Below, piece by piece: positions 43,693-59,748 of a stretch of DNA of 64,000 bases. The stretch covers positions 62,001 to 126,000 of the forward strand of contig JAFKFL010000009.1 in assembly GCA_017308235.1 (NCBI GenBank), in the 5' to 3' direction. The notes beneath the pieces were generated by a model. It saw nothing but the letters and a program-made list of their open reading frames with translations, was not told the DNA's origin and searched no databases. This DNA is from Alphaproteobacteria bacterium. GTDB taxonomy: Bacteria > Pseudomonadota > Alphaproteobacteria > Reyranellales > Reyranellaceae. Position numbers and translations under genes: made by a program. Positions within the stretch are counted from its first letter, which is position 1, and each line of letters begins with the position of its first letter.

Positions 43693-43699
43693 GACCCGC

Positions 43700-44776
43700 T
43701 CAGCGCCGGGCGCCGACGATGCGGTCCCACTCCTTGGCGAACTCGGGCCGGTCCTTCTCGAAGGCGTTCCAGTCGGCCGGCGTCAGCAGCTTCATGTCCT
43801 TGAGCGGCACGCTGCCGGCCGGCGCCGGCACATCGGGGCGCGGCGAATGCAGCAGCAACGCGTCGCTGAGCGCCTTCTGGCCGACCGGCGAGAGGAACCA
43901 GTCCATGAACAGCTCGGAGGCATGGGGATGCGGGCCGTCGGCCACGATGCCGTAGGTCTCCGGCACCGCCGGCACGCCGGTTTCAGGGAAGACGAAACCG
44001 AGCGGCGCGCCCTTGGCCTTGAACTCGATGTAGCCGGAATACTGTGCGCCCATGATGATCTTGTCCTGGCCGTCGACCAGGCGGCCGTACTGCTGGACAT
44101 AGGAATCGAAGGCGCGCGGCTTCTGCTCGGCGAATTTCTTGAAGTAGTCCATGCCCAGGATCGGCTTCAGCATGTACCAGACGCCGTGCTGCAGGCCGGA
44201 GTTGGAGACCTTGACGTTGATCGAGTCCTTCCACTTGGGATCGAGCAGATCCTCCCACTTCTTGGGCGCCTCGGCTGCCGGCACGTCCTTGGGATTGTAG
44301 GCAATGCCCGCCATGATGATGGAGCCCCAGGTGAAGAAACCTTCGGGCGTGCTCTTATATTCGGGCTTGAAGGCGGCCATCTCGGGCGAGAGATATTGGC
44401 GGAAGCCGCCGCGCTTCTGGAAGTCCAGGATCATGCCCATGTCGGAGATCTGGATGACGTCGACCAGGTAGGACTTGGCCTGACGTTCCGACAGGACCTT
44501 GGCGTAGAGCGCCCCCGCCTGGAGGCGCACGTAGTTGGTCTTGATCTTGGGGAAGGCCTTGTTGAAGGCGGCGAGCAGCTTGGCCTGGCCCTGCTCGGGA
44601 TCAGTCGAATAGAGCACGAAGGCACCCTCGGCCTCGGCCTTGTCGACATCGGCGCAGGTCTTGAAGCCTTCCATCTGGCGTGGCTTGTCGCAGAGCTTCG
44701 CGCCCTCGGCGAAGGCCATGCCCGTCCAGGCCAGTGCGCAGGCAGCCACGCTCGCGGCAGCAAGAAGCTTCATCAT
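43700..44776 (-). CDS. Periplasmic solute-binding protein of the FbpA/AfuA/PhnS-like group
   Basis: The 358-residue protein has a signal peptide (LLAAASVAACALAWTGMAFA, cleavage after AFA). Its body is of the group 1 iron/polyamine/phosphonate type: EGAFVLYSTDPEQGQAKLLA, WEDLLDPKWKDSI and ASELFMDWFLSPVGQKAL. The adjacent-tyrosine iron site of true ferric-binding proteins is not seen, which argues for an organic ligand, perhaps a phosphorylated one given the neighbours. GGAGG precedes tandem ATGs at 44776 and 44773. The gap to ugpQ is 56 bases. Confidence 0.85.
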   Translation of the reverse strand: MMKLLAAASVAACALAWTGMAFAEGAKLCDKPRQMEGFKTCADVDKAEAEGAFVLYSTDPEQGQAKLLAAFNKAFPKIKTNYVRLQAGALYAKVLSERQAKSYLVDVIQISDMGMILDFQKRGGFRQYLSPEMAAFKPEYKSTPEGFFTWGSIIMAGIAYNPKDVPAAEAPKKWEDLLDPKWKDSINVKVSNSGLQHGVWYMLKPILGMDYFKKFAEQKPRAFDSYVQQYGRLVDGQDKIIMGAQYSGYIEFKAKGAPLGFVFPETGVPAVPETYGIVADGPHPHASELFMDWFLSPVGQKALSDALLLHSPRPDVPAPAGSVPLKDMKLLTPADWNAFEKDRPEFAKEWDRIVGARR

Positions 44777-44832
44777 TTCCTCCCCGGGTGCTTGTTTTCA
44801 GGCGAGGAGCCTAGAGGCGGCCAACCGCCGAT

Positions 44833-45609
44833 TCAATCGCTGTGTAGTGACGCCTGAACCCGCTCTCTCTGTTGCAGAGCGATATCCGGCCGGTCGGTCG
44901 TGAGCTGCCGCAACGGGCGTGACAGCCACTGGGCAAGTTCCGAAGCGTCGTTTGGCACCCAGACGCCGAGCCGCTCTGGACCAAGTCGCTCCCGGCAGAG
45001 ATCGAAGCTCTGCGCCAAAAGCCCTTTCTCCACGGCGACCATGCAGTCCTCGATGGCCATCAGGCGTTCAAGGGCTGGCTCCAGGCCGCCCAGCATCTCG
45101 GCCGAACGACGGTCGAGCGAGGCGAGGACGCGCTGCCTCGATGATAGCTGTCGGACATTTTTCAGCATCTGCGGCACGAAACAGGTCAGGACAGCGTCAT
45201 TCTGCATCCGTCGCCGCGCGAGCAGGTCGATGAGGCGTCGCTCGAGGTCCGGATAGGGCCGGCCGAACGCATCGGTCTTGAGCTCGATATGCAGTTCCAT
45301 GCGCGAGCCGGCGAAGATATCGAGCACCGAGGCAAGGTCCGGCACGCCCTCACCATTGCCATCGCGCAACCGGATTGCTGCGAGCTCGGCGGCGGTACGA
45401 TCGGCGACGGCGCCCGCTCCCTCAGTCGTGCGCTCGAGCGTCGGATCGTGGATCACCACGAGCTCGCCGTCGCGCGCGACATGGACATCGAACTCCACGG
45501 CATCGATGCCGAGCGCCTTCGTCCGCCGGAAGCCATCGAGACTGTTCTCCGGCCAAAGATTGCGCGCGCCGCGATGGCCGACGATCAGCACCCGCTCATT
45601 TTCCGGCAT
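44833..45609 (-). CDS. ugpQ: Glycerophosphodiester phosphodiesterase (UgpQ-like, cytoplasmic)
   Basis: The 258-residue TIM-barrel enzyme has the GDPD signature VGHRGARNLWPENSLDGF at the N-terminus, AVEFDVHVARDGELVVIHDP with the metal and acid residues, and MELHIELKTD. There is no signal peptide, so it acts on imported substrate, releasing glycerol phosphate and an alcohol. It overlaps ugpE by 14 bases, matching the UgpQ role of processing diesters brought in by the Ugp importer. Confidence 0.92.
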   Translation of the reverse strand: MPENERVLIVGHRGARNLWPENSLDGFRRTKALGIDAVEFDVHVARDGELVVIHDPTLERTTEGAGAVADRTAAELAAIRLRDGNGEGVPDLASVLDIFAGSRMELHIELKTDAFGRPYPDLERRLIDLLARRRMQNDAVLTCFVPQMLKNVRQLSSRQRVLASLDRRSAEMLGGLEPALERLMAIEDCMVAVEKGLLAQSFDLCRERLGPERLGVWVPNDASELAQWLSRPLRQLTTDRPDIALQQRERVQASLHSD

Positions 45610-46498
45610 CGACGAGGCCCTTCACCAGCCAGCGCTGCAGCGCCACCACAACAACCACCGGAGGCAGCATGACCAGCAGGGCCGCATTCATGGCGATGTT
45701 CCAGGCGGGCTCGGTATCGGATTGCGGGATCAGGTCCTTCAACCCGACGACGGCGGTCGCCATGCTCTTGTCGGTCGTGAACAGCAAAGGCCACAGATAC
45801 TGGTTCCAGCCGTAGAGAAACAGGATGATGCCCAGCGCCACGATATTCGAGACCGAAAGCGGCAGCAGCACGCTCCAGAAGAAGCGCAGCGGCGAGGCGC
45901 CGTCGATGCGCGCGGCCTCGGCCAGCTCCTCCGGTACGGTGAGGAAGAACTGGCGGAACAGGAAGGTCGCGGTGGCGGAGGCGATCAGGGGTAGGATCAG
46001 CCCGCCGTAGCTGTTCATCATGTTCCAATCGAGTGCGATCTCGATTCCCAGCCACCGGCCGACGTCGAGCGCATCGATCAGCCATTGCAGCGGCAGGGCG
46101 ACGTTTGCGACCGCCTCGTAGGTCGGCAGGATGCGCACCTCGACCGGCAGCATCAGCGACACGAAGATCAGCCAGAAGGCCAACATGCGCCATCGGAAGC
46201 GGAAGTAGGCGACGGCGAAGGCCGAGAGCAGCGAGACCGCGATCTTGCCCACCGCGATACCGACCGCGACGATGAAGGAATTCACGAACAGCCGGCCGAG
46301 ATTGCCCTTCTCCCAGGCCGTCGCCGCGTTGGCGAAGAAGGCATGTCCGGGCAGCCAGGGCGGCGGGACAGTCAGCACCTCGCTCACCGTATGCGAGCCG
46401 ACGACGAAGGCGAAGTAGATCGGCAGGCAGACAAGCAGGCCGCCCAGGATCAGGATCCCGTGGCAGGCGATGTCGATGCCGCGCGTGCGCTCGACCAT
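45596..46498 (-). CDS. ugpE: Glycerol-3-phosphate-type ABC importer permease UgpE
   Basis: The 300-residue permease has six predicted helices and the EAA loop EELAEAARIDGASPLRFFWS, followed by LYGWNQYLWPLLFTTDKSMA, a UgpE/MalG-type block. The ATG at 46498 lies two bases after ugpA. It is a membrane partner of UgpA; the ligand may be glycerol phosphate or a glycerophosphodiester. Confidence 0.9.
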   Translation of the reverse strand: MVERTRGIDIACHGILILGGLLVCLPIYFAFVVGSHTVSEVLTVPPPWLPGHAFFANAATAWEKGNLGRLFVNSFIVAVGIAVGKIAVSLLSAFAVAYFRFRWRMLAFWLIFVSLMLPVEVRILPTYEAVANVALPLQWLIDALDVGRWLGIEIALDWNMMNSYGGLILPLIASATATFLFRQFFLTVPEELAEAARIDGASPLRFFWSVLLPLSVSNIVALGIILFLYGWNQYLWPLLFTTDKSMATAVVGLKDLIPQSDTEPAWNIAMNAALLVMLPPVVVVVALQRWLVKGLVDAGK

Positions 46499-46500
46499 GG

Positions 46501-47481
46501 TCACACGTCGTAGTTCACATTCCGCTCGACATAGCGGAACTGCAGCACGGTAAGCACCAGGGCGAAGATCATCATCAGCACCGATTGAGCGGCCGACGAA
46601 CCGAGATCGATGTGCACAAAGCCGTCGATATAGACCTTGTAGACGAGGATCATGGTGGCGCCGCCCGGGCCGCCATGGGTCACCGCATCGACGATGGCGA
46701 AAGTCTCGAAGAAGCCGTAGACGAAATTCATCACCACCAGGAAGAAGATCGTGGGGCCAATCATCGGCAGCGAGATGCGCGCGAAGCGCAGCAGCGGGCC
46801 GGCGCCGTCGACGGCAGCCGCTTCCAGCAACGAGGCCGGAACGGAGAGCAGGGCTGCGATCAGGAAGATGTAGTCGTAGCAGATGTGCTTCCACGATGCG
46901 GCAAAGGTCACCAGCAGGAAGGCATCGATGCCGTGCCGGTTGGGATCCCAGTCGATGCCAACGCCGTGCAGGATGAAGGAGATCGGGCCAACAGCGGTGT
47001 TGAACAGGAAGGCCCACAAGATGCCGGCGATAACCGGCGCAATGGCGTAGGGCAGCAGGATGATGCTGCGATAGAAGCCGCGGCCGCGCAGGATCCGGTC
47101 GGTCGCAAACGCAAGCACCAGCGACACGACGATGGTGAGCGCGTTCTGTGCCAGCGTGAACCAGAATGTGACGCCGATCGAGGCACGATATTCGGGGCTC
47201 GCCAGCAAGCGGCGAAAATTGTCGAACCAAACGAACTGCACGCTGTTGCCGAACGGATCGGTCAGCACGAACGACTGCGACAGTGCGCGCAGCGCCGGAA
47301 TAAAGAAGAAGAGCAGCAGCACCAACAACTGCGGCAGCAGCAGCAGGAACGGCAGGCGCGCCTCGCGGAAATGGGAACGCTTCAGCCCGCGCGTGCCGCC
47401 CGCCGGCGTCGGCCGGCGCTGCCGGGGCGCGGTGACGACCGGCCCCGGTATCGCAGGCGAAAGGCTAGTACTTGCCCGCAT
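46501..47481 (-). CDS. ugpA: Glycerol-3-phosphate-type ABC importer permease UgpA
   Basis: The 326-residue permease has six helices, beginning LPFLLLLPQLLVLLLFFFIP. It contains the coupling loop SLLEAAAVDGAGPLLRFARI and the UgpA-like block FETFAIVDAVTHGGPGGATM. The ATG at 47481 lies within the last codons of ugpB (17-base overlap) with GAGAAG just before it. An unusual basic, proline-rich N-terminal extension of about 40 residues precedes helix 1; a shorter start is possible. Confidence 0.9.
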   Translation of the reverse strand: MRASTSLSPAIPGPVVTAPRQRRPTPAGGTRGLKRSHFREARLPFLLLLPQLLVLLLFFFIPALRALSQSFVLTDPFGNSVQFVWFDNFRRLLASPEYRASIGVTFWFTLAQNALTIVVSLVLAFATDRILRGRGFYRSIILLPYAIAPVIAGILWAFLFNTAVGPISFILHGVGIDWDPNRHGIDAFLLVTFAASWKHICYDYIFLIAALLSVPASLLEAAAVDGAGPLLRFARISLPMIGPTIFFLVVMNFVYGFFETFAIVDAVTHGGPGGATMILVYKVYIDGFVHIDLGSSAAQSVLMMIFALVLTVLQFRYVERNVNYDV

Positions 47482-48793
47482 TCAGCTTCTCGAACTGCCG
47501 CAGCAGCTCGTTGCCGCGGCGGACGGCATCGTCCAGCCCCTGCTGCGGCGTCTTCTTGTTCGCGAACACCGATTCCATCTCCTCGCGCAACGCGAACGTG
47601 GCCTGGGTGTAGTTGCCGAAGTGAAAGCCCTGCGAATTCGGCGTCGGCGTGCCGCGGTTGAGCTGCAGGATCGCGATCTCCCGGGTGGGATGATCCTTGT
47701 AGTAGCCCGCAGACTTCGCCATCTGATAGGCCGTGTTGGAGATCGGCACGTAGCCAGTCTCCTCGTGCCACCAGACCTGCAGGTCGGGCTTGGCCAAGAA
47801 CTCGAGGAAAGCGGCAACGCCGTCGTACTCCTCTGACTTATGGCCCTTCATCACCCAAAGCGTGGCGCCGCCGATGCTGCTGTTGCGCGCCGTGAGGTCC
47901 GCCTCGTGCGGCAGGTACGTAGCACTCCACTTGATCGAAGGTTCGCGCTCGATCCCGCCATGAGCGGCGGTCGAGGCGAAATAGGTCGCGCACTTGCCCG
48001 ATGTGAAGAGCTGCTGCGGGCTGAGGCCCTGGCCTGCGATCTGGATGATGCCGTCGTTGACCCACTTCTGCAGCCGAGCGACCTGCTGCACCAGCCGCGT
48101 CTTGTTGTAGACGAACTCCGTGTCGAGCCCATCGTAGCCGTTGGATTTCGTGCCCCACGGCTGGTCGTTCACCGTGCTGTAGTTCTCCATCAGGCTCCAG
48201 AAGTAGTCACCGGCCAGCGACGACCCACACTCGGCCGCGCCCTTGCTCTTGATCGCATAGAGCTGCTTCTCGAATTCGGCCCAGGTGTCGGCAGGTCCCG
48301 AGAAGCCCGCCTTCTCGAACTGCTCCTTGTTGTAGAACAGGATTGGCGTCGAGGAATTGAAAGGCATGCTCATGAGCTTGCCCTTGTATTGGTAGTAGCT
48401 CGCGACCGGCTTGATGAAGTCGGAGAAGTCGACCTGCTTCTTCTTCTCGGTCATCAGATCCTGCACCGGCACGATGGCGCCCGAGAGCAGCATCGCCATG
48501 AAGCCGCGTTCGTAGATCTGCACGATCTGCGGCGCTTTCTTGGCACGATAGGCGGCGATCGTGGCGTTGATCACCTCATCGTAGTTGCCCTTGTTGGTGG
48601 CGACGACCGTGTATTTGGTCTGCGAATCGTTGAAGCGCTTGACGATCTCGCCCACCCGCTCGCCCAACACGCCGCTCATGGCATGCCAGAACTGGATCTC
48701 GACCCGCTGCTGCGCAAGCGCGGGGACGGCATCTCCGGCCGCGATGCTGGCTGCCAACGCTCCCGTGAACAGCGCCCTCTTGGTCAGGTTCAT
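47465..48793 (-). CDS. ugpB: Glycerol-3-phosphate/glycerophosphodiester-binding protein UgpB
   Basis: The 442-residue periplasmic protein has a signal peptide (cleavage after PALA, residue about 27). It then matches UgpB: VEIQFWHAMSGVLGERVGEI, NKGNYDEVINATIAAYRAKK then APQIVQIYERGF, and MPFNSSTPILFYNKEQFEKA. The FWHAM start and NSSTP segment are typical of UgpB ligand-site regions. It overlaps araM by four bases, tying glycerol-phosphate uptake to glycerol-1-phosphate dehydrogenase. Confidence 0.92.
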   Translation of the reverse strand: MNLTKRALFTGALAASIAAGDAVPALAQQRVEIQFWHAMSGVLGERVGEIVKRFNDSQTKYTVVATNKGNYDEVINATIAAYRAKKAPQIVQIYERGFMAMLLSGAIVPVQDLMTEKKKQVDFSDFIKPVASYYQYKGKLMSMPFNSSTPILFYNKEQFEKAGFSGPADTWAEFEKQLYAIKSKGAAECGSSLAGDYFWSLMENYSTVNDQPWGTKSNGYDGLDTEFVYNKTRLVQQVARLQKWVNDGIIQIAGQGLSPQQLFTSGKCATYFASTAAHGGIEREPSIKWSATYLPHEADLTARNSSIGGATLWVMKGHKSEEYDGVAAFLEFLAKPDLQVWWHEETGYVPISNTAYQMAKSAGYYKDHPTREIAILQLNRGTPTPNSQGFHFGNYTQATFALREEMESVFANKKTPQQGLDDAVRRGNELLRQFEKLNAGKY

Positions 48794-50184
48794 CCTTCCC
48801 TCCCTTTGTTAAACGATCGTTTCAAACCGCCGCGCGAGCCGGCCCAGTAGCCGCCGGCTGCAAAGAGATCGGCGACAACCCTGTCGAGCCATCCAAGATC
48901 GTGCAGCAGATCGAGGCCGGTGAATCGGCGGCGAATCAGACGCGCCCGCCTGTAGTCCCGGGCATGCTTCTCGCGCGACACGCCGACATCGGCTGACTGC
49001 GATGGGGCGCCAACCGCTTCGAGCCACCGCTGCACGACCGCTGCCTTGGGCAGCCGCCCGTGCAAGTAGGCGAGGATGTCGGGCCACTTGTCGCGCAAGG
49101 CGCGCAGCCTTTGTTCGACGTGCGCTGGCGACGCCGCCTTCGCCGCCGTCTCGACAGCGGCATTGGCGGCCATGAAAGAAAGCGGGAAGGACGTCCGCAC
49201 GCCGGCATCAAGTGCCAATGCCGACGGCGTCCGGCCCGCGAGCCGCGCCGGATCGATCGCGCCGATGTCCTGGCGTTGCAGCCATTCATAGGCGGCCAGC
49301 ATCGAAAGACAGCCGACCCCGACGCAGGCGCCATGCGACACGGGCTCGCCTCCAACGGTGACCTCCTCCATCTCCCAGAGATGGGCGAACTGATGGTCGC
49401 TACCGCTGGCCGGCCGCGAGTTGCCATGCGCCTGCATGGCAAGCCCCGACATCACGAGACCCTGCATCAAGCCGCCGAGCGTCGCGCGATCGCCATTGCG
49501 GATACCGGACGGGTTGCCGAGCCAATCGGTCAGGTTGTCCTGGACCATGGCGAAGGGAGCGGCGTTCATGGCCTCCTCGCCCAGCGCATCGGCCACGATC
49601 CAGTCCGCACCGGCGACCAGCTTGCCGGCAAGATCGCCGTAGCCCCATGCGGCCATGATCCCCGGCGCCCGCGCGATCACATCGAGATCGGCCACGATTG
49701 CCACCGGCGCGGCACAGGCAAGGGTGCGCTTGAAGCCGCCTTCGCGGAGCGCGGCACCGGATGCGGCGTAGCCATCCATCGATGCCGCGGTGGGCACGCA
49801 GACATAAGGGGTTCCAGCCTCTTCCGCCGCATGTTTCACGAGGTCACTGATCACGCCCGAGCCCACGGCGATCGGCAGCCGCTTGCTGGCACGCAGCTGG
49901 TGAGCGAGGTCGCGCGACAGTTCGACAGTTGGCTTCACCCGCGGATGGCCGCTCAGCACAACCGGCTCCGCTTGGCCAATACCGGCGGCCTCCAGGACCC
50001 CGGCCACGCGTCCGCCTGCAGCAATCCAGGTTTTGTCGTCGGCAACGATCACATAGGCCGCGGCAGGTGCCGTTCGCACGAGCACGGCCGGTAGCGCATC
50101 GAGGCCTCCCGCAGCGATGACGACATCGCGCGTCGTGCCGGCAGCGGCGACCGCTTTGCGGAGATCAGACTCCTGTCCGTCCAT
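48790..50184 (-). CDS. araM: sn-Glycerol-1-phosphate dehydrogenase (AraM/EgsA family)
   Basis: The 464-residue protein is of the iron/zinc alcohol-dehydrogenase-like G1P dehydrogenase family. It has the nucleotide-site block AVGSGVISDLVKHAAEEAGT, VCVPTAASMDGYAASGAAL, AWGYGDLAGKLVAGADW and a metal site with SDHQFAHLWEMEE and VSHGACVGVGCL. The family interconverts dihydroxyacetone phosphate and sn-glycerol-1-phosphate, the archaeal-type enantiomer. Next to ugpBAEQ a catabolic direction seems likely. The ATG at 50184 lies 23 bases from the palindromic operator and has no clear ribosome-binding site; an ATG at 50205 is an alternative. Confidence 0.88.
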   Translation of the reverse strand: MDGQESDLRKAVAAAGTTRDVVIAAGGLDALPAVLVRTAPAAAYVIVADDKTWIAAGGRVAGVLEAAGIGQAEPVVLSGHPRVKPTVELSRDLAHQLRASKRLPIAVGSGVISDLVKHAAEEAGTPYVCVPTAASMDGYAASGAALREGGFKRTLACAAPVAIVADLDVIARAPGIMAAWGYGDLAGKLVAGADWIVADALGEEAMNAAPFAMVQDNLTDWLGNPSGIRNGDRATLGGLMQGLVMSGLAMQAHGNSRPASGSDHQFAHLWEMEEVTVGGEPVSHGACVGVGCLSMLAAYEWLQRQDIGAIDPARLAGRTPSALALDAGVRTSFPLSFMAANAAVETAAKAASPAHVEQRLRALRDKWPDILAYLHGRLPKAAVVQRWLEAVGAPSQSADVGVSREKHARDYRRARLIRRRFTGLDLLHDLGWLDRVVADLFAAGGYWAGSRGGLKRSFNKGREG

Positions 50185-50206
50185 GGGGAAGGAATAGCAG
50201 CTCATT

Positions 50207-50238
50207 AAACATTTGTATATAATACGATACAGATGTTT
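50207..50238. promoter_or_regulatory. 32-bp palindromic operator between araM and the SorC-type regulator
   Basis: AAACATTTGTAT and ATACAGATGTTT are inverted around an 8-base centre and match at 11 of 12 positions. A TATAAT-like -10 sequence lies across the left arm and centre (50215-50220). The position between divergent genes suggests the adjacent SorC-type protein binds here to control both directions. Confidence 0.7.
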
Positions 50239-50245
50239 TCGGAGT

Positions 50246-51211
50246 ATGACAGCGCCCATGGCGGACGATGACGAGCAGCTCCGGGTGCGTGTGGCCTGGC
50301 TCTATTTCATGGAAGGCCTCACGCAGGCCGATATCGCGAGCAAACTCGGGATCACGCGGCTGCGCGCCAATCGGCTATTGGGTGAGGCGCGCGAAAGCGG
50401 CCTGGTGAACATCCAGGTGAATGCACAGCTTTCGGGCTGCGTCGCCCTGGAGCGCGAGCTGATCGCGGAGACCGGGCTCAAGGACGCTGTCATCGTGCCG
50501 ACACCGGCTGACCCCGAGCAGACCGCTCCGATCCTGGGCCGGGCGACGGCCGACTATCTCGCCCGGCACCTGGATGAAAACCGCGTGCGCGCGCTCGGCA
50601 TCGGCTGGGGCGGTACCCTGCGCGAGACCGTACGGCATCTGCGCAGCGCCAATCTGCCGGAGCTCAGCGTCAACTCGATGATGGGTGGACTGACCTACGG
50701 CTCGGAGCTCAACACCTTCGAGATCGCGAGCGAATTCGCGCGCCGCGTGAACGCGCAATGTAATTACCTCGCCGCGCCGATCTATGCCGGCAGCGCCCGC
50801 TCGCGCGACACGATCCTCGAGCAGGACGTGTTCCGCGAGACGTTCCAGCGCCTTGCCGGCATCGATATGGCCTTGATGAGCGTGGGCGATCTCAGCCGCC
50901 GCTCGCTCCTGATCCGTTATGGCCTGCCCCGCGATGTGACCGTCGATTCCCTGCGCGGTGCCGGCGTCATCGGCGACATCATGGGCACGTTCCTCGACGC
51001 CCGCGGCCAGCCGGCGCGCCACGCCGTGAACAAGCGCGTGATCGCGATGCCGATCGAGATGCTGCGCAAGGTGTCCACGGTGATCGTGGCATCGGGTGGC
51101 CTCAACAAGGCGGCGATCCTGGCCGGCGTGCTCAGGGCACGCCTCTGTTCGGTGCTCGTGTGCGACGAGGCAACTGCACGCGCCGCCCTCGGCATCGTCC
51201 GCGGCGGCTGA
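50246..51211 (+). CDS. SorC/DeoR-type sugar-responsive transcriptional regulator
   Basis: The 321-residue protein has an N-terminal helix-turn-helix (YFMEGLTQADIASKLGITRL then RANRLLGEARESGLV). A SugarBind (SorC) effector domain follows: VRALGIGWGGTLRETVRHLR, CNYLAAPIYAGS, MSVGDLSRRS and TVIVASGGLNKAAILAGVLR. SorC proteins sense phosphorylated sugars or polyols. The stop overlaps the kinase start (TGATG). ATGs at 50246 and 50258 are both possible; GGAG is too close to the first and far from the second. Confidence 0.9.
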   Translation: MTAPMADDDEQLRVRVAWLYFMEGLTQADIASKLGITRLRANRLLGEARESGLVNIQVNAQLSGCVALERELIAETGLKDAVIVPTPADPEQTAPILGRATADYLARHLDENRVRALGIGWGGTLRETVRHLRSANLPELSVNSMMGGLTYGSELNTFEIASEFARRVNAQCNYLAAPIYAGSARSRDTILEQDVFRETFQRLAGIDMALMSVGDLSRRSLLIRYGLPRDVTVDSLRGAGVIGDIMGTFLDARGQPARHAVNKRVIAMPIEMLRKVSTVIVASGGLNKAAILAGVLRARLCSVLVCDEATARAALGIVRGG

Positions 51212-52653
51212 TGTACCTCGGCATCGATATCGGCACGTCAGGCGTGAAGGCCGTCGTGATGGACGAACATGACCGGCCGGTCGCGGAGGCAACGGCGCCG
51301 CTCGCGATCTCGCGGCCGCAGCCGCTTTGGGCCGAGCAGGCGCCGGAGGGCTGGTGGCACGCCGTCGAACACACGCTCGATGCCCTGGCAACCCGTGCGA
51401 CGCATGCCATGGCGGCCGTCAAGGCGATCGGATTGTCAGGACAGATGTTGGGCGTGACTTTGCTCGACGAGACCGATCATCCGCTGCGTCCTGCGCTCCT
51501 CTGGAACGATGGCCGTGCGACGGCAGAATGCCGGGACCTGGAGCGGTGCTTTCCCGGCTTCGCGGCGCGCGTGGGCTGTCGACCCATGCCGGGTTTCTCC
51601 GCGCCAAAGCTCCTGTGGCTCGCCCGCCACGAGCCTCTCGCTCTCGAACGCACCCGTCGCGTGCTGCTCACCAAGGACTATATCCGTCTGCGCCTGACGG
51701 GCGAAGCCGCGAGCGATCGCGCCGATTCCTCGGCGATGCTGCTGATGGACACTGCCGCCGGCGAGTGGGATGACGCCCTTCTCGCGGCCTGTGGCATCGA
51801 CCGAAGCGTGATGCCCCGACTTGTCGACAGTGCAGAGGTCGCGGGGAGCTTGCGCCCCGAGTGGGCAGCACGTTGGCATCTGCCTTCGGGAACGCCGGTC
51901 GCGGGCGGCGGCGGAGACAATATGTGCGCCGGTGTCGGGGTCGGCGCGGTCAGATCCGGCGACGCCTATATCGGTCTCGGCACTTCGGGTGTCTATTTCC
52001 TCGCCAACGATCGCTTCATCCCGGCGACATCGGCAGGCATGCACACCCATCGTCATGCCGTGGCCGGTCTCTACTGCCAGCACGCCGTCGTCCTGAGCGC
52101 AGGCGAATCGCTCGCCTGGATCGGCCGCCTGCTGCGGATGCCCGATCTCTCGTCATTGATCGCCGAGGTGGAAGCGGCAACCCTCATGCCGGCCGAGACA
52201 CCGGTCTTCACGCCTTACCTCGGCGGCGAACGCACACCGCATGACGATCCGACCCTGACCGCGACCTTCTCGGGCCTCACGCACGAGACGAGTCCGCTCG
52301 CGTTGGCACAAGCCGTCATGGAAGGCGTCGCCATGGCGCTCGCCGACGGTCAAGCAGCGCTGATCGAAAGCGGCGCAAACATCGGAAACGTCACGCTGAC
52401 CGGTGGCGGCGCCCGGAGCGTCTTGTGGGGCCGCCTTATCGCTGCAGCGACAGGCATTTCGCTGAGGCTTCCGACAGACGGGCATACCGGCCCGGCACTC
52501 GGTGCCGCACGGCTTGCGCGACAGAGCGTCGGCGGCCCGCTGATCGCCTCCATCAACGGCGAGGAGGCCGTCGTGCCTGTCGAACCGTCGCTGCGCGAAC
52601 AGCTCTTGCAGAAACACACGCTTTTCCGCCGACACCTTCGCCTTTCGCGCTAA
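51211..52653 (+). CDS. FGGY-family carbohydrate kinase (xylulokinase-like)
   Basis: The 480-residue kinase has the FGGY ATPase fold: MYLGIDIGTSGVKAVVMDEH, IGLSGQMLGVTLLD, PALLWNDGRATAEC, the catalytic-Asp region PVAGGGGDNMCAGVGVG and VTLTGGGARSVLWGRLIAAA. It resembles XylB, but FGGY members phosphorylate many pentoses, polyols and trioses. Co-transcription with a SorC regulator and divergence from araM-ugp genes point to a polyol or sugar alcohol. cofD follows after eight bases. Confidence 0.88.
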   Translation: MYLGIDIGTSGVKAVVMDEHDRPVAEATAPLAISRPQPLWAEQAPEGWWHAVEHTLDALATRATHAMAAVKAIGLSGQMLGVTLLDETDHPLRPALLWNDGRATAECRDLERCFPGFAARVGCRPMPGFSAPKLLWLARHEPLALERTRRVLLTKDYIRLRLTGEAASDRADSSAMLLMDTAAGEWDDALLAACGIDRSVMPRLVDSAEVAGSLRPEWAARWHLPSGTPVAGGGGDNMCAGVGVGAVRSGDAYIGLGTSGVYFLANDRFIPATSAGMHTHRHAVAGLYCQHAVVLSAGESLAWIGRLLRMPDLSSLIAEVEAATLMPAETPVFTPYLGGERTPHDDPTLTATFSGLTHETSPLALAQAVMEGVAMALADGQAALIESGANIGNVTLTGGGARSVLWGRLIAAATGISLRLPTDGHTGPALGAARLARQSVGGPLIASINGEEAVVPVEPSLREQLLQKHTLFRRHLRLSR

Positions 52654-52661
52654 GGTGGGCC

Positions 52662-53627
52662 ATGAGCCAGGACAATCGTAGAGTTCTCGCCCTCGCCGGA
52701 GGGGTGGGCGGCGCAAAGCTTGCGCTCGGCCTCAGCGCCGTCTTGCCGGCCGACGCGCTGACGGTGGCGGTGAACACCGCCGACGATTTCGAACATCTCG
52801 GCCTCTCGATCTCGCCCGACCTCGACACCGTCATGTATACGCTGTCCGGCCTCGCCAATCCGGAGACTGGCTGGGGCCGGCGCGATGAGAGCTGGAACGC
52901 GATGGCGGCCCTTGAACAGTTGGGCGGAGAAACCTGGTTTCGGTTGGGTGACAAGGATCTCGCCACGCACATCGAACGCACCCGTCGGCTGCGCGCCGGC
53001 GAGACGCTCTCGGCGGTCACCCGCGACCTCGCGCAGCGACTCGGCATCAAATGCGCCGTCGTCCCGATGACGGACAGCCCGGTACGCACCGTCGTCACCG
53101 CTGACCAGGGCGACCTCGCCTTCCAGGATTGGTTCGTGCGCCTGCGTTGCGAACCGGCTGTCCGGCGCATACGGTTCGCCGGCGCGGACAAGGCGCGGGC
53201 AAATCCCGCCCTTCTCGATATGGTTAAGTTGCGTGGTGTGGTCTTTTGCCCCTCGAACCCGTTCGTGAGCGTCGCCCCCATTCTCGCAATCCCCGGCGTT
53301 CGCATGACCCTGCAGCAGACCAGGGTACCGCGCGTGGCCGTGACGCCGATCGTGGGGGGCCAGGCGATCAAGGGCCCCGCCGCCAAGATGCTGGCCGAGC
53401 TCGGGCATGATGTTTCCGCCCTGGGCGTGGCGCGTTATTATAAGGGCCTGATCGACGGCTTCGTGCTCGACCAGGCCGATGCCTCGCTGAAGGCCGAGAT
53501 CGAGGGCCTCGGCATCAAGGTGCATGTCGCAGACACGATGATGCACACCGATAACGACAAGCGACGGCTTGCCGCCGCCACCCTCGAATTCGTGGACGCC
53601 CTCGCCCGCTCTCTGCAACACTCCTGA
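52662..53627 (+). CDS. cofD: 2-phospho-L-lactate transferase (CofD/FbiA), F420 biosynthesis
   Basis: The 321-residue enzyme has VLALAGGVGGAKLALGLSAV, VAVNTADDFEHLGLSISPDL then DTVMYTLSGLANPETGWGRR, CPSNPFVSVAPILAIPGVR and VADTMMHTDNDKRRLAA, all CofD landmarks. It transfers the phosphoenolpyruvyl, phospholactyl or phosphoglyceryl unit from its GDP-activated donor to FO. AAGGTG precedes the ATG. It starts eight bases after the sugar-kinase stop and three bases before cofC, so F420 genes share this transcript. Confidence 0.94.
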   Translation: MSQDNRRVLALAGGVGGAKLALGLSAVLPADALTVAVNTADDFEHLGLSISPDLDTVMYTLSGLANPETGWGRRDESWNAMAALEQLGGETWFRLGDKDLATHIERTRRLRAGETLSAVTRDLAQRLGIKCAVVPMTDSPVRTVVTADQGDLAFQDWFVRLRCEPAVRRIRFAGADKARANPALLDMVKLRGVVFCPSNPFVSVAPILAIPGVRMTLQQTRVPRVAVTPIVGGQAIKGPAAKMLAELGHDVSALGVARYYKGLIDGFVLDQADASLKAEIEGLGIKVHVADTMMHTDNDKRRLAAATLEFVDALARSLQHS

Positions 53628-53630
53628 CCC

Positions 53631-54197
53631 ATGCCTGTCGCTGTCGTCCCGATGAAATCCCTGCCGCTCGCCAAAGGCCGCCTGGCCCCGGTGCTCGACG
53701 CGGCCGGTCGGCGTGCGCTCGCTCAAAAGATGCTGGACCACGTGCTGGGTACGCTGCAGGAAGCCGGATTGCCGGTCCGCGTGGCGAACGGCGCCGGCAA
53801 TGATGCCGATCTCAATCGCGACGTGACTGACGCTGCACGTGCGGTGCAGGCCGAGGGAGCCGACGACCTCCTGCTGGTGATGGCCGACCTGCCCTATCTC
53901 TCCGTGGCCGATATCCAGGCCCTGATCGAGGCCGGGCGGCAAAGCCCGATCGTCATCGCCGAGGCCAAGGACGGCGGCACCAACGCCCTGCTGCTGCGCC
54001 CGCCGACGGTGCTGCCCTTCACCTTCGCAACCAACCGGCCCAGCGCCGCATTGCATGGCGAACGGGCCCGCGCCGCCGGCATCGAGCCGGTCATCGTGCG
54101 TCGCCCCGGCCTCGCGCGCGATATCGACACGCCGGCCGATCTCGCCCAGCTTGTCTCCGACCATCCTGCGTACCATGTGTTCCGCCATGTCGCCTGA
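53631..54197 (+). CDS. cofC: 2-phospholactate/phosphoenolpyruvate guanylyltransferase CofC (FbiD)
   Basis: The 188-residue nucleotidyltransferase begins VAVVPMKSLPLAKGRLAPVL. It contains LLVMADLPYLSVADIQALI, AEAKDGGTNALLLRPP and GLARDIDTPADL, the CofC signature set. It activates a three-carbon phospho acid with GTP for CofD; whether that is 2-phospholactate, PEP or 3-phosphoglycerate cannot be read here. It is slightly shorter than the roughly 200-220 residues I recall for the family. It overlaps fbiC by 11 bases. Confidence 0.93.
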   Translation: MPVAVVPMKSLPLAKGRLAPVLDAAGRRALAQKMLDHVLGTLQEAGLPVRVANGAGNDADLNRDVTDAARAVQAEGADDLLLVMADLPYLSVADIQALIEAGRQSPIVIAEAKDGGTNALLLRPPTVLPFTFATNRPSAALHGERARAAGIEPVIVRRPGLARDIDTPADLAQLVSDHPAYHVFRHVA

Positions 54198-56616
54198 AGT
54201 CCAAAGCATCCTCGCCGAAGCCGCTGATCTGCCGGTCCTGATGAAGAAGGCGGCGGCATCGCGCGATGCCGCCTTCGGCGATCGCGTGACCTTCTCCAAG
54301 AAGGTCTTCATTCCGCTGACACATCTCTGCCGCGACAACTGCGGCTACTGCACCTTCGTGCATCCGCCGCGCCGCGGCGAAGCGGCGTACCTCACGCCCG
54401 AGCAGGTGCTGGAGATCGCGCGCGCCGGGCAAGCAGCCGGCTGCGCCGAGGCGCTGTTCACCCTGGGCGACAAGCCGGAGCTCAAATGGAAGCCCGCGGC
54501 CGAGGCGCTCGCCGTGATGGGCCATGCCACGACACTCGACTACCTCGCTGACATGGCCGGGCGCGTCTTCAAGGAGACCGGCCTGCTGCCGCACCTCAAT
54601 CCCGGGCTGATGACCGCGGCCGATCTCGCGAAGCTCAAGCGAGTCTCGGTGTCGATGGGCATCATGCTGGAGACGACGGCAGAACGTCTTGGCGAACGCG
54701 GCGGGCCACACTTCGGCGCCCCAGACAAGGAGCCGGCGGCCCGCCTCGCCACGCTCGAGGCGGCGGGCAAGGCGAAGGTGCCGTTCACGTCGGGCATCCT
54801 GATCGGGATCGGCGAAACGCGCGCCGAGCGGATCGAAGCCTTACTGGCGCTGCGCGATCTGCATCGCGCGCACGGCCATCTGCAGGAAGTCATCATCCAA
54901 AATTTCCGCGCCAAATCAGACACGCGCATGGCTGATGCGCCCGAGCCCTCGTTCGAGGAGCTTTTGTGGACCGTCGCGGTGGCGCGCCTGATCTTTGGCG
55001 ACACGCTCTCGGTCCAGGCGCCGCCCAACTTGCAGGAGCCTGGCTACGGACGATTGATCGAGGCGGGCATCGACGACTGGGGTGGCGTCTCGCCGGTGAC
55101 ACCCGATCACGTCAATCCCGAGCGGCCGTGGCCGCAGATCGCCGCGCTTGCGGCCGAAAGCGCACGATACGGCAAGGTGCTGACCGAACGGCTCGCGGTC
55201 TATCCGCGCTACATGAACGACAAGGCCTGGATCGATCCGGCGCTGCGCCCGCGCGTGCTGTCGATGAGCGAGGCGAGCGGTCTCAGGCGTGACAACGACT
55301 GGCGGCCGGGCCTCGTGCTGGCGATGCCCGAGGACGACGTCGCGACCCTCGCACAGCCGGCCGTGCGGCCGAGCGCCAGTCTCGCGCCGATCCTCGATCG
55401 GGCAACGCGCGGCGAGGATCTCGGCGAAGAGGACATCGTGCGGCTGTTCGCCGCCCGCGGTTCGGATTTCGCCGCCGTGGCTCAGGCCGCCGATGCGGTG
55501 CGGCGCGACATGGTGGGCGACGCGGTCTCCTACGCCGTCGTGCGCAACATCAACTACACCAACATCTGCTACTTCCGTTGCGGCTTCTGCGCCTTCTCCA
55601 AGGGCAAGCTCGCGGCCAACCTGCGCGGCTCGCCCTATGATCTCACCGTGCAAGAGATCGTGCGCCGCGCGGCCGAAGCCTGGGATCGCGGCGCCACCGA
55701 GGTCTGCATGCAGGGCGGCATCCATCCCGACTACACGGGCCAGCATTATCTCGACGTCTGCCAAGCCGTGCGCGAGCGCATCCCCGGCATGCATGTGCAC
55801 GCCTTCTCGCCGCTCGAGGTCTGGCATGGCGCCACGACACTTGGCCGCTCGATTCCCGACTACCTGGCCGAGCTGCGCGACGCGGGCCTCGGCAGCCTGC
55901 CCGGCACAGCGGCCGAAGTGCTCGACGACGAAGTGCGCGACATCCTCTGCCCCGACAAGGTCTCGACCGACCAGTGGCTCGACATCATGCGGGCCGCGCA
56001 CAAGGTCGGCCTGCGCTCGACCGCCACCATCATGTTCGGCCATGTCGACCAGCCGATCCATTGGGCGCGCCATCTCCTGCGCCTGCGCAACCTGCAGAAG
56101 GAGACCGGCGGCTTCACCGAGCTGGTGCCGCTGCCGTTCGTCGCCGCCGAGGCGCCGATCGCGCTGAAAGGCCAGGCGCGACTGGGACCGACCTTCCGCG
56201 AAGCCGTGCTGATGCATGCCATCGGCCGTCTGGCGTTGCATCCGCATTTCAAGAACATCCAGACTTCGTGGGTGAAGATGGGAGTCGAGGGCGCCAAGCT
56301 CTGCCTGCAGGCCGGCGCCAACGATCTCGGTGGCACGCTGATGAACGAGTCGATCACGCGCGCCGCCGGTGCCGAGCATGGCGAGGAGCTGCCGCCCGAG
56401 GCGATGGAACGCCTGATCACCGAGCTTGGCCGCACCGTGCGCATCCGCACCACGCTCTACGACGATGCCGGCGCCGAACGACACGCCGCGGCACATGCCG
56501 CGAAGGCGCTGGAACCGATCAAGCTCGAAGTAGCGGAACGCTGGGCCGGTCCGGCGCTCGAAAGCGACAAGCGCCGCGTGCTGCCCAAACCGCGGCAGCC
56601 CATCCCGGCGCGCTGA
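54187..56616 (+). CDS. fbiC: FO synthase FbiC (fused CofG-CofH radical SAM enzyme)
   Basis: The 809-residue protein has two radical SAM modules. The CofG half has Cys48, Cys52 and Cys55 (HLCRDNCGYCTF). The CofH half has Cys461, Cys465 and Cys468 (ICYFRCGFCAFSKGK), and further CofH blocks such as VCMQGGIHPDYTGQHYLDVC and TSWVKMGVEGAKLCLQAGAN. It builds the deazaflavin FO from tyrosine and a ribityl-uracil. The single-chain fusion is the form known from actinobacteria and other bacteria, whereas archaea usually use two proteins. It starts inside cofC. Confidence 0.95.
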   Translation: MSPEVQSILAEAADLPVLMKKAAASRDAAFGDRVTFSKKVFIPLTHLCRDNCGYCTFVHPPRRGEAAYLTPEQVLEIARAGQAAGCAEALFTLGDKPELKWKPAAEALAVMGHATTLDYLADMAGRVFKETGLLPHLNPGLMTAADLAKLKRVSVSMGIMLETTAERLGERGGPHFGAPDKEPAARLATLEAAGKAKVPFTSGILIGIGETRAERIEALLALRDLHRAHGHLQEVIIQNFRAKSDTRMADAPEPSFEELLWTVAVARLIFGDTLSVQAPPNLQEPGYGRLIEAGIDDWGGVSPVTPDHVNPERPWPQIAALAAESARYGKVLTERLAVYPRYMNDKAWIDPALRPRVLSMSEASGLRRDNDWRPGLVLAMPEDDVATLAQPAVRPSASLAPILDRATRGEDLGEEDIVRLFAARGSDFAAVAQAADAVRRDMVGDAVSYAVVRNINYTNICYFRCGFCAFSKGKLAANLRGSPYDLTVQEIVRRAAEAWDRGATEVCMQGGIHPDYTGQHYLDVCQAVRERIPGMHVHAFSPLEVWHGATTLGRSIPDYLAELRDAGLGSLPGTAAEVLDDEVRDILCPDKVSTDQWLDIMRAAHKVGLRSTATIMFGHVDQPIHWARHLLRLRNLQKETGGFTELVPLPFVAAEAPIALKGQARLGPTFREAVLMHAIGRLALHPHFKNIQTSWVKMGVEGAKLCLQAGANDLGGTLMNESITRAAGAEHGEELPPEAMERLITELGRTVRIRTTLYDDAGAERHAAAHAAKALEPIKLEVAERWAGPALESDKRRVLPKPRQPIPAR

Positions 56617-56617
56617 T

Positions 56618-56710
56618 CTCTTCCGGACCTCGAGCCTCCGGCTCGCTCATGAAGGCGCATGTGAATGCGCTGACATGAGCGCGCAGGATGCGCGCGGTCC
56701 AAAAGAAGAG
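56618..56710. repeat. Cloverleaf-like inverted repeat between fbiC and fgd
   Basis: The outer stem CTCTTC...GGACC pairs with GGTCC...GAAGAG. Inside are three hairpins: CGAGCC/GGCTCG, CTCATG/CATGAG enclosing GCGCAT/ATGCGC, and GCGCGC/GCGCGC. It exactly fills the tail-to-tail gap of two genes. It shares its TCTTCCGGACC start and the motif GCTCGCTCA with the element at 58536-58604, which suggests a repeat family. Confidence 0.75.
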
Positions 56711-56712
56711 CG

Positions 56713-57717
56713 CTAGCCGAATTTCTTCCTGAGCCGCGGCAGCACGTCCTTGGCGTAGAGCGACAGGAAGCGCGACTGGTCGGCGCCAGGCGCGTGGAAG
56801 ACCAGGTGATTGAAGCCGAGCTGCACGTAGGGGACGATGCGCTCGACATGCTCGTCGGGATCGGTCGAGACGATCCAGCGGCTGGCGATGCGGTCGATCG
56901 GCAGCGCATCGGCGAGCCGCGCCATCTCGGTCGGATTGTGGACCGAGGTCTTCTCCTCCGCTGACAGCGCCAGCGCCGACCAGAAGCGCGTGTCTTCCTT
57001 CGCCCGCGCGAGGTCGGTGTCGAATGACACCTTCATCTCGATCATGTAGTCGACCGAGCCGGGCGCCTTGCCGGCCGCCGTCATGCCTTCGGCGACGCTC
57101 GGGATCAGCTTGTCGCGATAGAGCTCGGTGCCCTTGCCGCTAGTGCAGATGAAGCCGTCGCCAGCGCGGCCGGCGTACTTGGCAACCTGCGGCCCACCCG
57201 CCGCCACGTAGATCGGAATGAGCTCGGCCGGCCGGTCGTAGATCGTGGCGTCGCGCGTCTTGTAGAACTCGCCGTCGAAGGTGACGTGCTCCTCGCTCCA
57301 GAGCTTACGCATCAGCACGATCGATTCGCGCATGCGCGCATAGCGCTCCTTGAACTCGGGCCAGGGCTGGCCGGTCGCCGGCACTTCGTTCAACGATTCG
57401 CCGGTCCCGACGCCCAGGATCACGCGGCCGGGAAAGAGACAGCCCAAGGTCGCGAAGGACTGCGCCACGATCGAGGGATGGTAGCGGTAGGTCGGCGTCA
57501 GCACGCTGGTGCCCATGGCGATGCGGCCGGTGCGCGCGCCCAGCGCGCCCATCCAGGTGACGGAGTGCGGGGCGTGGCCGCCCTCGTGCCGCCATGGCTG
57601 GAAATGGTCGCTGATGAAGACCGAATCGAAGCCCTGTCGCTCGGCCTCGCAGGCGAATTCGAGCAGCTCCTTCGGACCGAATTGTTCGGCGGACGCCTTG
57701 TAACCCAGCTTCAACAT
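56713..57717 (-). CDS. fgd: F420-dependent glucose-6-phosphate dehydrogenase
   Basis: The 334-residue LLM-fold protein is strikingly close to mycobacterial Fgd1 as I recall it, including [59 protein letters not shown] and [15 protein letters not shown]. Active-site residues align: His38, Trp42 and Glu107. The sugar-phosphate ligands Lys195, Lys256 and Arg280 also align, corresponding to His40, Trp44, Glu109, Lys198, Lys259 and Arg283. It would oxidise glucose-6-phosphate to phosphogluconolactone while reducing F420. AAGGGG lies eight bases before the ATG. It is divergent from cofE across 92 bases. Confidence 0.93.
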
Positions 57718-57809
57718 GGATCGGCCCCTTTCAAAGACAGAGAAAAGGCTTATCACTACCGGCCTCTCCCCTGCGACGGAGTTTTTCGATTCCTGCCCAG
57801 CGTCTCGAG

Positions 57810-58532
57810 TTGATCGCGCCCACCGGCCTGCCGCGCATCCAGCCGGGTGACGACCTCGCTTCCCTGATCGCACCTTTTGGCCTCCAGGATCACGACGTCG
57901 TGGTGCTGGCTCAGAAGATCGTGTCCAAGGCCGAGGGGCGGTTGTTTCGCCTCTCGGACATCACGCCGTCAGAACGCGCCATCGAACTCGGCCCAAAGGT
58001 CGACAAGGACCCGCGCCTGGTCGAGCTGATCCTGCGCGAATCGACCGAGATCGTGCGGGCGATCAAGGGCGTGGTGATCGTCCAGCATAGGCTGGGTTTC
58101 GTGATGGCCAATGCCGGCATCGACGCTTCCAATGTCGACGATCCCGACCAGGTGCTGCTGCTGCCGGCCGATCCCGACGCCTCGGCACGGCGGCTGCGCG
58201 CGCGGCTGAAGGAGCTCGCGGGCGTCGAGGTGGGCGTGATCATCAACGATTCCTGGGGCCGCGCCTGGCGCATGGGCACGATCGGGGCGGCGATCGGCGC
58301 ATCAGGCTTGCCGGGCCTGATCGACATGCGCGGCCAGCCTGACATGAACGGCCGCATCCTGCGTGTCACCGAGATCGGCCATGCCGACGAGATCGCAGCG
58401 GCAGCCTCTCTCCTGATGGGCCAGGCAGCCGAAGGCCGGCCGGTGGTGATCGTGCGTGGCCTGGGACGCCCCGATCGCGACGGCAATGCCGCCGAGCTCG
58501 TGCGGCCGAAGAACATGGATCTGTTCAGGTAG
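57810..58532 (+). CDS. cofE: Coenzyme F420-0:L-glutamate ligase CofE (FbiB N-terminal domain)
   Basis: The 240-residue protein has [62 protein letters not shown] and [15 protein letters not shown], all CofE blocks. It adds glutamates to F420-0 using GTP. It lacks the C-terminal FMN reductase domain of actinobacterial FbiB. The start is poorly defined: a TTG at 57810 fits the family N-terminus best, with no strong ribosome-binding site. Confidence 0.92.
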
Positions 58533-58535
58533 GAT

Positions 58536-58604
58536 CTTCCGGACCGCGAGCTTCCAGCTCGCTCACAATCATGAGCGAGCCGGAGGCGGCTCGCGGTCCC
58601 GAAG
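58536..58604. repeat. Nested inverted repeat between cofE and a binding-protein gene
   Basis: The 11-bp outer stem GGACCGCGAGC/GCTCGCGGTCC is flanked by CTTC/GAAG and encloses the perfect 9-bp hairpin GCTCGCTCA/TGAGCGAGC. It lies in the tail-to-tail gap of cofE and the binding-protein gene. It resembles the element at 56618-56710 in its outer ends and its GCTCGCTCA motif. Confidence 0.8.
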
Positions 58605-58608
58605 AGGT

Positions 58609-59748
58609 CTACTCCACCTTCACGAGATCGGCGACGCCGACCTTGCGGTTCTTCACTGTCTGCAGCACGACGTAGTGGCCCATTGAATTGTGGTCGTCGA
58701 AGCCCACGGTCTTGCCCATGAGATTGTCGATCTTCACCTTGCGCATGGCCTCCATGACCTTCTGGCCGTCGGTGCTGTTCGCATCCTTGATCGCCTGCAT
58801 GATGATGCGCAGCGACTGGTAGCCAGCCCAGGTCTGCAGGTAGGGCTCGGACTTGTACTTGGCCCTGATCTTCTCGGCGAAGGCCTTGTTCTGCGGATCT
58901 TCGATCGTCGCGTTGTAGACCCAGGCGCTGATCGAATTCTCCATGCCGCCCGCCTCGATGATGGGCTGGTTGCGCCCGCCCAGCTCGACGCGGCCAGTGT
59001 ACGGGATATGGACGCCAAGCTGCATCGCCTGGCGCAGGAAGTTGATCGAATCGCCGCCGATCTGGAAGGTGGCGATGGCGTCGGGATGAAGCTGCTGCAG
59101 GCGGGTCAGCAGGCTGGTGAAGTCAGGCGTGTTCTGCGGCGGATAATCCGTCGACAGTATCTTGACACCCGCTTTGTCAGCTACCGCCTTGAAGGCGTCG
59201 GCACCGCCGCGGCCGAAGTCGGTGTCCTCGGCCACGATCGCGACCGTCTTGAACAGCTTTTTCTGGCCGAGATACATGCCGAGCGCGTCCATCATGGCGG
59301 TGTCGGACGGGCTGATGCGGAACGAATATTCGTTGCGGCCCGGCCCCGCGAGCTCGGTGATCTGCGGGTTCGAAGCGATGCCGGTGATCATCGGGATCTT
59401 GGCGTCGGCCATGATCTTCATCGTGGCGAGGTGGACCGAGCTGCAGTGGGCGCCCTCAACTGCGGCAACCTTGGCCTCGACAAGCTTGTTGGCGACGTTC
59501 ACGCCTTCCGAGGGATTGCACTTGTTGTCGAGGACCATCAGCTCGACCTTGCGGCCGCCGAGCAGGCCGCCCGCGGCATTGATCTCATCGACGGCGAGAT
59601 TGACGCCCCACATCTCCCATTCCGACGCGACCGCCGCCGGGCCCGTCTTGGGCGTCGAGACGCCGATCACGATCGGCTGGGCAAGCGCCGGCACGGCACC
59701 AAGCACGCAAGCGGCCGCGGCCGCCAGCCAGGTCTTCGTCTTCATCAT
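58609..59748 (-). CDS. Periplasmic binding protein of a second Liv-type ABC importer
   Basis: The 379-residue protein has a signal peptide (TWLAAAAACVLGAVPALAQP, cleavage after ALA). Its type I binding fold includes VIGVSTPKTGPAAVASEWEM, EINAAGGLLGGRKVELMVLD and FKTVAIVAEDTDFGRGGADA. GAGGAG lies five bases before the ATG at 59748. It follows the IclR gene by eight bases on the same strand, with permease and ATPase genes divergent at 60.7 kb. The ligand is unknown, possibly an aromatic or branched carboxylate. Confidence 0.9.
   Translation of the reverse strand: MMKTKTWLAAAAACVLGAVPALAQPIVIGVSTPKTGPAAVASEWEMWGVNLAVDEINAAGGLLGGRKVELMVLDNKCNPSEGVNVANKLVEAKVAAVEGAHCSSVHLATMKIMADAKIPMITGIASNPQITELAGPGRNEYSFRISPSDTAMMDALGMYLGQKKLFKTVAIVAEDTDFGRGGADAFKAVADKAGVKILSTDYPPQNTPDFTSLLTRLQQLHPDAIATFQIGGDSINFLRQAMQLGVHIPYTGRVELGGRNQPIIEAGGMENSISAWVYNATIEDPQNKAFAEKIRAKYKSEPYLQTWAGYQSLRIIMQAIKDANSTDGQKVMEAMRKVKIDNLMGKTVGFDDHNSMGHYVVLQTVKNRKVGVADLVKVE

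Follow-up and report, generated by a model that had tools for sequence, protein, structure and literature searches.

A SorC-led gene module joined to F420 biosynthesis genes in Reyranella, with possible dual control of the cofactor genes

Within a 64,000-nucleotide (nt) stretch of a genome from the family Reyranellaceae, hereafter the window, a row of five genes on the forward strand (50246-56616) encodes a SorC-family regulator, an FGGY kinase and the F420 biosynthesis proteins CofD, CofC and FbiC. Here, we propose that cofDC-fbiC is under dual control, being transcribed both by read-through from the promoter in front of sorC and from a predicted leaderless promoter of its own, a reading to which we assign a probability of roughly 55% on the basis of sequence comparison. 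The parts of this arrangement are of known kinds, and it is their junction that is new.

The row is compact. An earlier note on this DNA had described five genes in one direction with spacings of an overlap, 8 nt, 3 nt and an overlap, which proved correct: the sorC stop codon TGA (51209-51211) shares 1 nt with the kinase ATG, the kinase stop codon TAA (52651-52653) is followed after 8 nt by the cofD ATG, cofC starts after a further gap of 3 nt, and fbiC overlaps the end of cofC by 11 nt. For sorC, an alternative start at the ATG at 50258 is possible. A consensus scan gave five terminator-like sites compared to 3.8 expected, none of them within the three short gaps of the row. CofD, CofC, the CofG-CofH fusion and CofE all score above their curated cut-offs, which places them in an F420 biosynthesis cluster. 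The regulator belongs to the SorC family by its Sugar-bind domain and an N-terminal helix-turn-helix, the latter covered by a full-length alignment to the nearest solved structure, LsrR (4go1, E 1.3e-34), and scores below the NCBIfam cut-offs for DeoR and LsrR. By family cut-off, the kinase is classed as xylulokinase type, and its nearest solved structure is xylulose kinase (2itm, E 1.2e-119).

Joined and separate forms in Reyranella

The window's genus was placed as Reyranella through two named relatives, Reyranella sp. (L058) and Enhydrobacter aerosaccus ATCC 27094 (L065), the latter with an unfused cof operon. We found cofD in 47 of 65 Reyranella genomes, 16 with the window's type (type A, 73-100% identity) and 31 with another type (about 55-59%). 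Two cofD types with differing gene orders thus occur in one genus, and 18 of the 65 genomes hold neither (E up to 1e-60). We mapped the surroundings of cofD in every one of the 16 type-A genomes, in some cases on short contigs. In five of them (G000, G002, G015, G058 and G004) kinase and cofD are joined, with gaps of 8, 9, 9, 9 and 9 nt, respectively. Since the junction recurs in five genomes and CofD of the other four is only 74-89% identical to that of the window, the fused form appears to be more than chance. The synteny search suggested in the earlier note gave a negative answer outside Reyranella: the junction was present in 5 of 16 type-A genomes and absent from all 79 other cofD loci examined. 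The latter comprise 66 non-type-A loci among the best 80 of 182 relatives, 59 of them with at least 1.5 kb of upstream sequence and none with a kinase beside cofD on its strand, and another 13 loci, which carry the other cofD type and none of which holds SorC, kinase, G1PDH-like (glycerol-1-phosphate dehydrogenase-like), UgpB, GDPD or PhoD genes. Three of the 66 loci (L089, L110 and L113, from Thermomicrobiales and Chloroflexi) have an FGGY kinase gene upstream, 0.4-0.6 kb off and on the strand opposite to cofD; these kinases score below the xylulokinase cut-off. We rejected them as evidence for an association outside Reyranella and regard them as a lead. The other 63 gave no kinase match.

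In the remaining 11 type-A genomes, the cof operon has no module in front; SorC is absent from 10 of these and encoded elsewhere in G080. In six (G023, G001, G080, G050, G042 and G041) cofD is divergent from a solute-binding gene, the same gene that stands beyond GDPD in four fused genomes (the contig of G058 stops short of it). Upstream of cofD in the others are genes for an aminotransferase (G010 and G057), a DUF3500 protein (G077) and a short-chain dehydrogenase (G063), and in G064 a gene that matched no family.

A module tree of 11 rows places the five fused modules on one side of a branch with a Shimodaira-Hasegawa-like approximate likelihood ratio test (SH-aLRT) value of 100, and in a cofDC-fbiC tree of 15 rows, from which G050 and the fused G004 copy were left out as too incomplete, the four fused rows are split between two positions. 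In an rpoB tree, G058 clusters with G001/G041/G042 and G004 with G023 (support 100 for both groups), in agreement with the cof tree; the two trees differ in G057, which in the rpoB tree stands beside G000 and not beside G010. This rpoB tree holds 18 rows from 21 genomes (G053 was too short, and G077 and G080 had no match), with G002 and G061, which may be contaminant pieces, on long branches. We read these trees as a single early fusion with several later losses, the alternative being transfer between species. One such loss can be seen in G004, judging from its two alleles: one (L027, G004:C93) has the full module before cofD, and in the second (L026, G004:C7) GDPD runs directly into the 39 nt that precede the kinase stop, with cofD behind them, in an assembly that may mix two strains. 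Among 12 upstream stretches tested for a kinase tail, the second allele of G004 was clear (39/39 nt), G064 perhaps positive (shuffle p = 0.0035) and G041 barely so (p = 0.0245); a kinase-tail fossil in all unfused genomes was rejected, with p of 0.39 or more in nine of the 12 stretches.

Two predicted routes of transcription

The sorC and kinase genes are part of a separate module, whose divergent arm holds the G1PDH-like gene, ugpB, ugpA, ugpE and GDPD. A predicted operator palindrome lies between the two arms and encloses TATAAT in the window. Its pattern is present in all 12 modules examined (11 from Reyranella and one from another genus of the family) and occurs once in the window's 6.3-Mb genome, with a chance expectation in the window of 0.00. 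SorC orthologues (E up to 1e-90) were found in 11 of the 65 Reyranella genomes, and a search of a 385-genome sample of the class (E up to 1e-70) gave four matches: the window's genome, Reyranella G015, G250, which belongs to the same family as the window's genome, and G040, with a 40% SorC match and no module of like order. Of the 11 Reyranella genomes with SorC, six have the module away from cofD. Here, phoD directly follows the kinase in five cases (three phoD genes confirmed by Pfam), with a 4-nt overlap in four modules and abutting in one; G080 has no phoD after the kinase, and the phoD-like gene of G250 (61%) stands behind GDPD. A single PhoD gene, away from the module, is present in each of the five fused genomes (search E up to 1e-20), with 52-54% identity to the operon type compared to 75-90% among the operon copies. 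From the regular place of phoD behind the kinase and the distant, divergent PhoD of the fused genomes, we conclude that cofDC-fbiC fills the phoD slot. Together with the tight junction and the single operator, this makes read-through from the SorC promoter into cofDC-fbiC likely.

The second route is suggested by a short element at the junction itself. In the fused genomes the kinase stop codon, TAA or TAG, forms the first half of a hexamer TARNNT, and a -10 box at its most common distance of -12 would place the transcription start at the cofD ATG. The hexamer starts 11-13 nt upstream of the ATG in 16 of 17 type-A cofD copies (exactly at -12 in 12), counts which are non-independent since the rows are related, and it was found in all five fused and in 10 of 11 unfused genomes, whatever DNA stands upstream. 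None of the 122 other starts of the same loci has it; the frequencies over all ATGs and over the first ATGs of long frames are 32 of 11143 and 18 of 508, cofD being included in both. A -10 hexamer kept at a fixed distance over changing upstream DNA is what is expected of a leaderless promoter, and the element looks like the -10 of such a promoter at cofD. The class has known examples of leaderless mRNAs, which make up 7% in Methylorubrum according to excerpts of PMC9320726.

Several points weigh against this promoter and the dual control built on it. The copy in G063 is the only one that has no TARNNT, and with automatic start choice the hexamer is found in just 12 of 17 copies, because four starts are set at GTG or TTG. 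No -35 element common to the cofD copies was seen by eye, and a scan of 48700-58700 for sigma-70-type promoters gave 0 sites compared to 0.9 expected. Instead of a -10 box, the hexamer could be a remnant of the kinase stop or, in some copies, contribute to a ribosome site. Moreover, only 5 of the 16 genomes have kept the fusion.

How could the junction work? In the proposed mechanism, SorC, presumably a repressor, would sit on the palindrome and leave it upon binding a phosphorylated product of the module, in the manner of DeoR and CggR; excerpts of PMC11229326 describe SorC-family repressors as binding palindromic operators from which they are released by sugar phosphates. Release would allow expression of both arms and would raise that of cofDC-fbiC by read-through. 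Basal expression of cofD would come from the junction element, whose -10 overlaps the kinase stop, and expression of cofE and fgd would depend on the region around these two genes. F420 would hence be present at a basal level at all times and at a higher level when the module substrate is available, and glucose-6-phosphate derived from module carbon could then reduce F420 via FGD. A more far-reaching version, which we put forward tentatively and as rather less probable than dual control as such, holds that the SorC repressor captured F420 synthesis via the phoD slot, that the kinase stop doubles as the -10 of a backup leaderless promoter, and that insertion or deletion of the module would add or remove nutrient control without silencing the cofactor genes.

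Other explanations have to be weighed against dual control. According to the earlier note, F420 synthesis appears to be switched by a sugar-phosphate-type regulator; taken strictly, synthesis as a whole would be switched, and the cofactor would be made only with a phosphorylated carbon source. The tight layout, the junction shared by five genomes and the lone operator at the head of the unit support this claim in part; between kinase and cofD, where the note named a terminator and a strong promoter as the evidence that would count against it, neither a terminator-like nor a sigma-70-type site was found by scanning, but the conserved -10-like hexamer (5/5 fused genomes) is located there. Since, in addition, 11 of 16 cof operons have no module in front and cofE lies outside the row, a strict SorC switch seems unlikely to us; 'switched by' is too strong, and 'boosted by read-through' fits better. 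Just as doubtful is the opposite view, that module and cofactor genes are neighbours only, with the cof genes transcribed from their own promoter and negligible read-through from sorC. It would account for the hexamer at cofD and for the cof operons that persist without the module in sister species, but not readily for a gap kept at 8-9 nt across five genomes whose CofD proteins are as little as 74% identical, nor for the missing terminator-like site at the kinase-cofD junction. A metabolic link, in which the kinase would make the small phosphate activated by CofC (2-phospholactate, phosphoenolpyruvate or 3-phosphoglycerate according to excerpts of PMC8764529) and kinase and F420 genes would form one pathway, gains from the adjoining genes but is very improbable, as the kinase scores as xylulokinase, the same kinase precedes phoD in 5 of 6 other modules and 11 of 16 type-A genomes lack such a kinase ahead of the cof operon. 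The CofC position matching Ser162 of Mycetohabitans CofC, a diagnostic position for the 3-phosphoglycerate-derived cofactor 3PG-F420 in excerpts of the same paper, is Asn here (alignment read by hand).

Module parts, predicted substrate and flanking features

Table 1 Features of the window around the fused row (cut-offs in brackets)
Feature	Position	Strand	Evidence
GDPD, glycerophosphodiester phosphodiesterase-like, last gene of divergent arm	44833-45609	-	Pfam GDPD PF03009 92.8 bits (23.6)
ugpB (47465-48793), ugpA (46501-47481), ugpE (to about 46513)	45596-48793	-	ATP-binding cassette uptake, glycerophosphate-like substrate predicted
Glycerol-1-phosphate dehydrogenase-like gene, first of divergent arm	48790-50184	-	Pfam Fe-ADH_2 106.9 bits
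Operator palindrome AAACATTTGTAT-N8-ATACAGATGTTT between arms	50207-50238	.	Predicted; pattern search
SorC-family regulator	50246-51211	+	Pfam Sugar-bind PF04198 175.7 bits (gathering cut-off 27)
FGGY kinase, xylulokinase type	51211-52653	+	TIGR01312 453.3 bits (380.25)
TAAGGT, predicted -10 of leaderless cofD promoter	52651-52656	+	Kinase stop codon forms bases 1-3
cofD	52662-53627	+	TIGR01819 305.7 bits (257.45)
cofC	53631-54197	+	TIGR03552 126.2 bits (105)
fbiC, CofG-CofH fusion	54187-56616	+	NF006687 1140.8 bits (1018)
REP-like hairpin 3' of fbiC, possible transcript end	56617-56700	+	Predicted -50 kcal/mol
fgd, F420-dependent glucose-6-phosphate dehydrogenase	56713-57717	-	TIGR03554 519.1 bits (420)
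cofE without FbiB reductase domain	57810-58532	+	TIGR01916 284.8 bits (180.65), over all 240 residues
REP-like hairpin 3' of cofE	58533-58608		Predicted -53 kcal/mol

The first product of the divergent arm stays below the NF002022 cut-off for its family (154.6 bits, cut-off 413), and its nearest solved structure is a glycerol-1-phosphate dehydrogenase (9h4x, E 7e-43), so that it may work like one. Likewise, UgpB remains below its cut-off (NF008211, 390.9 bits, cut-off 411), with UgpB proteins as nearest solved structures. With residue numbering matched by an offset of 20, seven of the nine ligand positions reported for Phaeobacter UgpB are kept, including the four phosphate contacts; Trp188 is replaced by Asp and Arg393 by Thr. 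The genes ugpA and ugpE were named from synteny and by eye, not by profile. No ugpC was seen beside ugpB, ugpA and ugpE in the module. Downstream of GDPD on the same strand (40925-44776), the window holds genes for an ATP-binding cassette transporter and a solute-binding protein; the ATPase, assigned by eye to frame 40925-42427, may also work with the ugp permeases. As for the phosphorylated carbon source invoked in the earlier note, the module parts point to a phosphodiester or a polyol phosphate as the likely substrate, but two of the nine ligand positions of UgpB are changed. With a G1PDH-like gene next to ugp and GDPD, archaeal-type glycerol-1-phosphate might be used.

Beyond fbiC follow fgd, rightly named in the earlier note as next door and scoring above its cut-off, and then cofE, each in its own unit; that note mentions neither cofE nor the divergent arm of the module. 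The repetitive extragenic palindrome (REP)-like hairpin behind fbiC is a possible end of the transcript; its motif, shared by the hairpin behind cofE, has 53 copies in the genome (at most one mismatch), compared to 3 for the reversed control. An Rfam search of 43000-59000 gave nothing at gathering scores, and a megablast search of 48790-58532 against plasmids returned eight records, each covering just 5-9% of the query.

Relation to known systems and meaning

Excerpts of three papers served for comparison. As in bacterial F420 clusters (PMC8498797), cofD, cofC, fbiC, cofE and fgd are all present above their cut-offs, but here cofDC-fbiC stands behind a sorC-kinase pair and cofE forms a separate unit. 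SorC-controlled carbohydrate operons such as those of Bacillus subtilis DeoR and CggR (PMC11229326) share the sugar-binding regulator, the palindrome at the head and a catabolic kinase directly behind it; unlike them, the regulator described here has DeoR and LsrR scores below cut-off, and cofactor genes stand at the 3' end. The ugp uptake system of Phaeobacter (PMC12718374) also comprises ugpB, ugpA and ugpE with GDPD, and its UgpB has 7 of 9 ligand positions in common with that of the module, whereas the module differs by the two substitutions and the missing ugpC named above, by the joined G1PDH-like and kinase genes and by the predicted SorC control.

Our literature search found nothing joining Reyranella and F420, and, among the matches listed, no kinase or SorC fusion to F420 genes by title or start of abstract in the F420 cluster literature, most subscription journals lying outside this search. 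Control of the amount of F420 in bacteria seems to be little described, as in a 2021 review (PMC8498797) 'promoter' is absent and 'regulat-' occurs four times in the main text. Reyranella species with and without the SorC module before the same F420 genes constitute a natural experiment. If dual control holds, a single stop-codon junction would put a cofactor pathway under nutrient control, and this control could be lost again while the cofactor stays.

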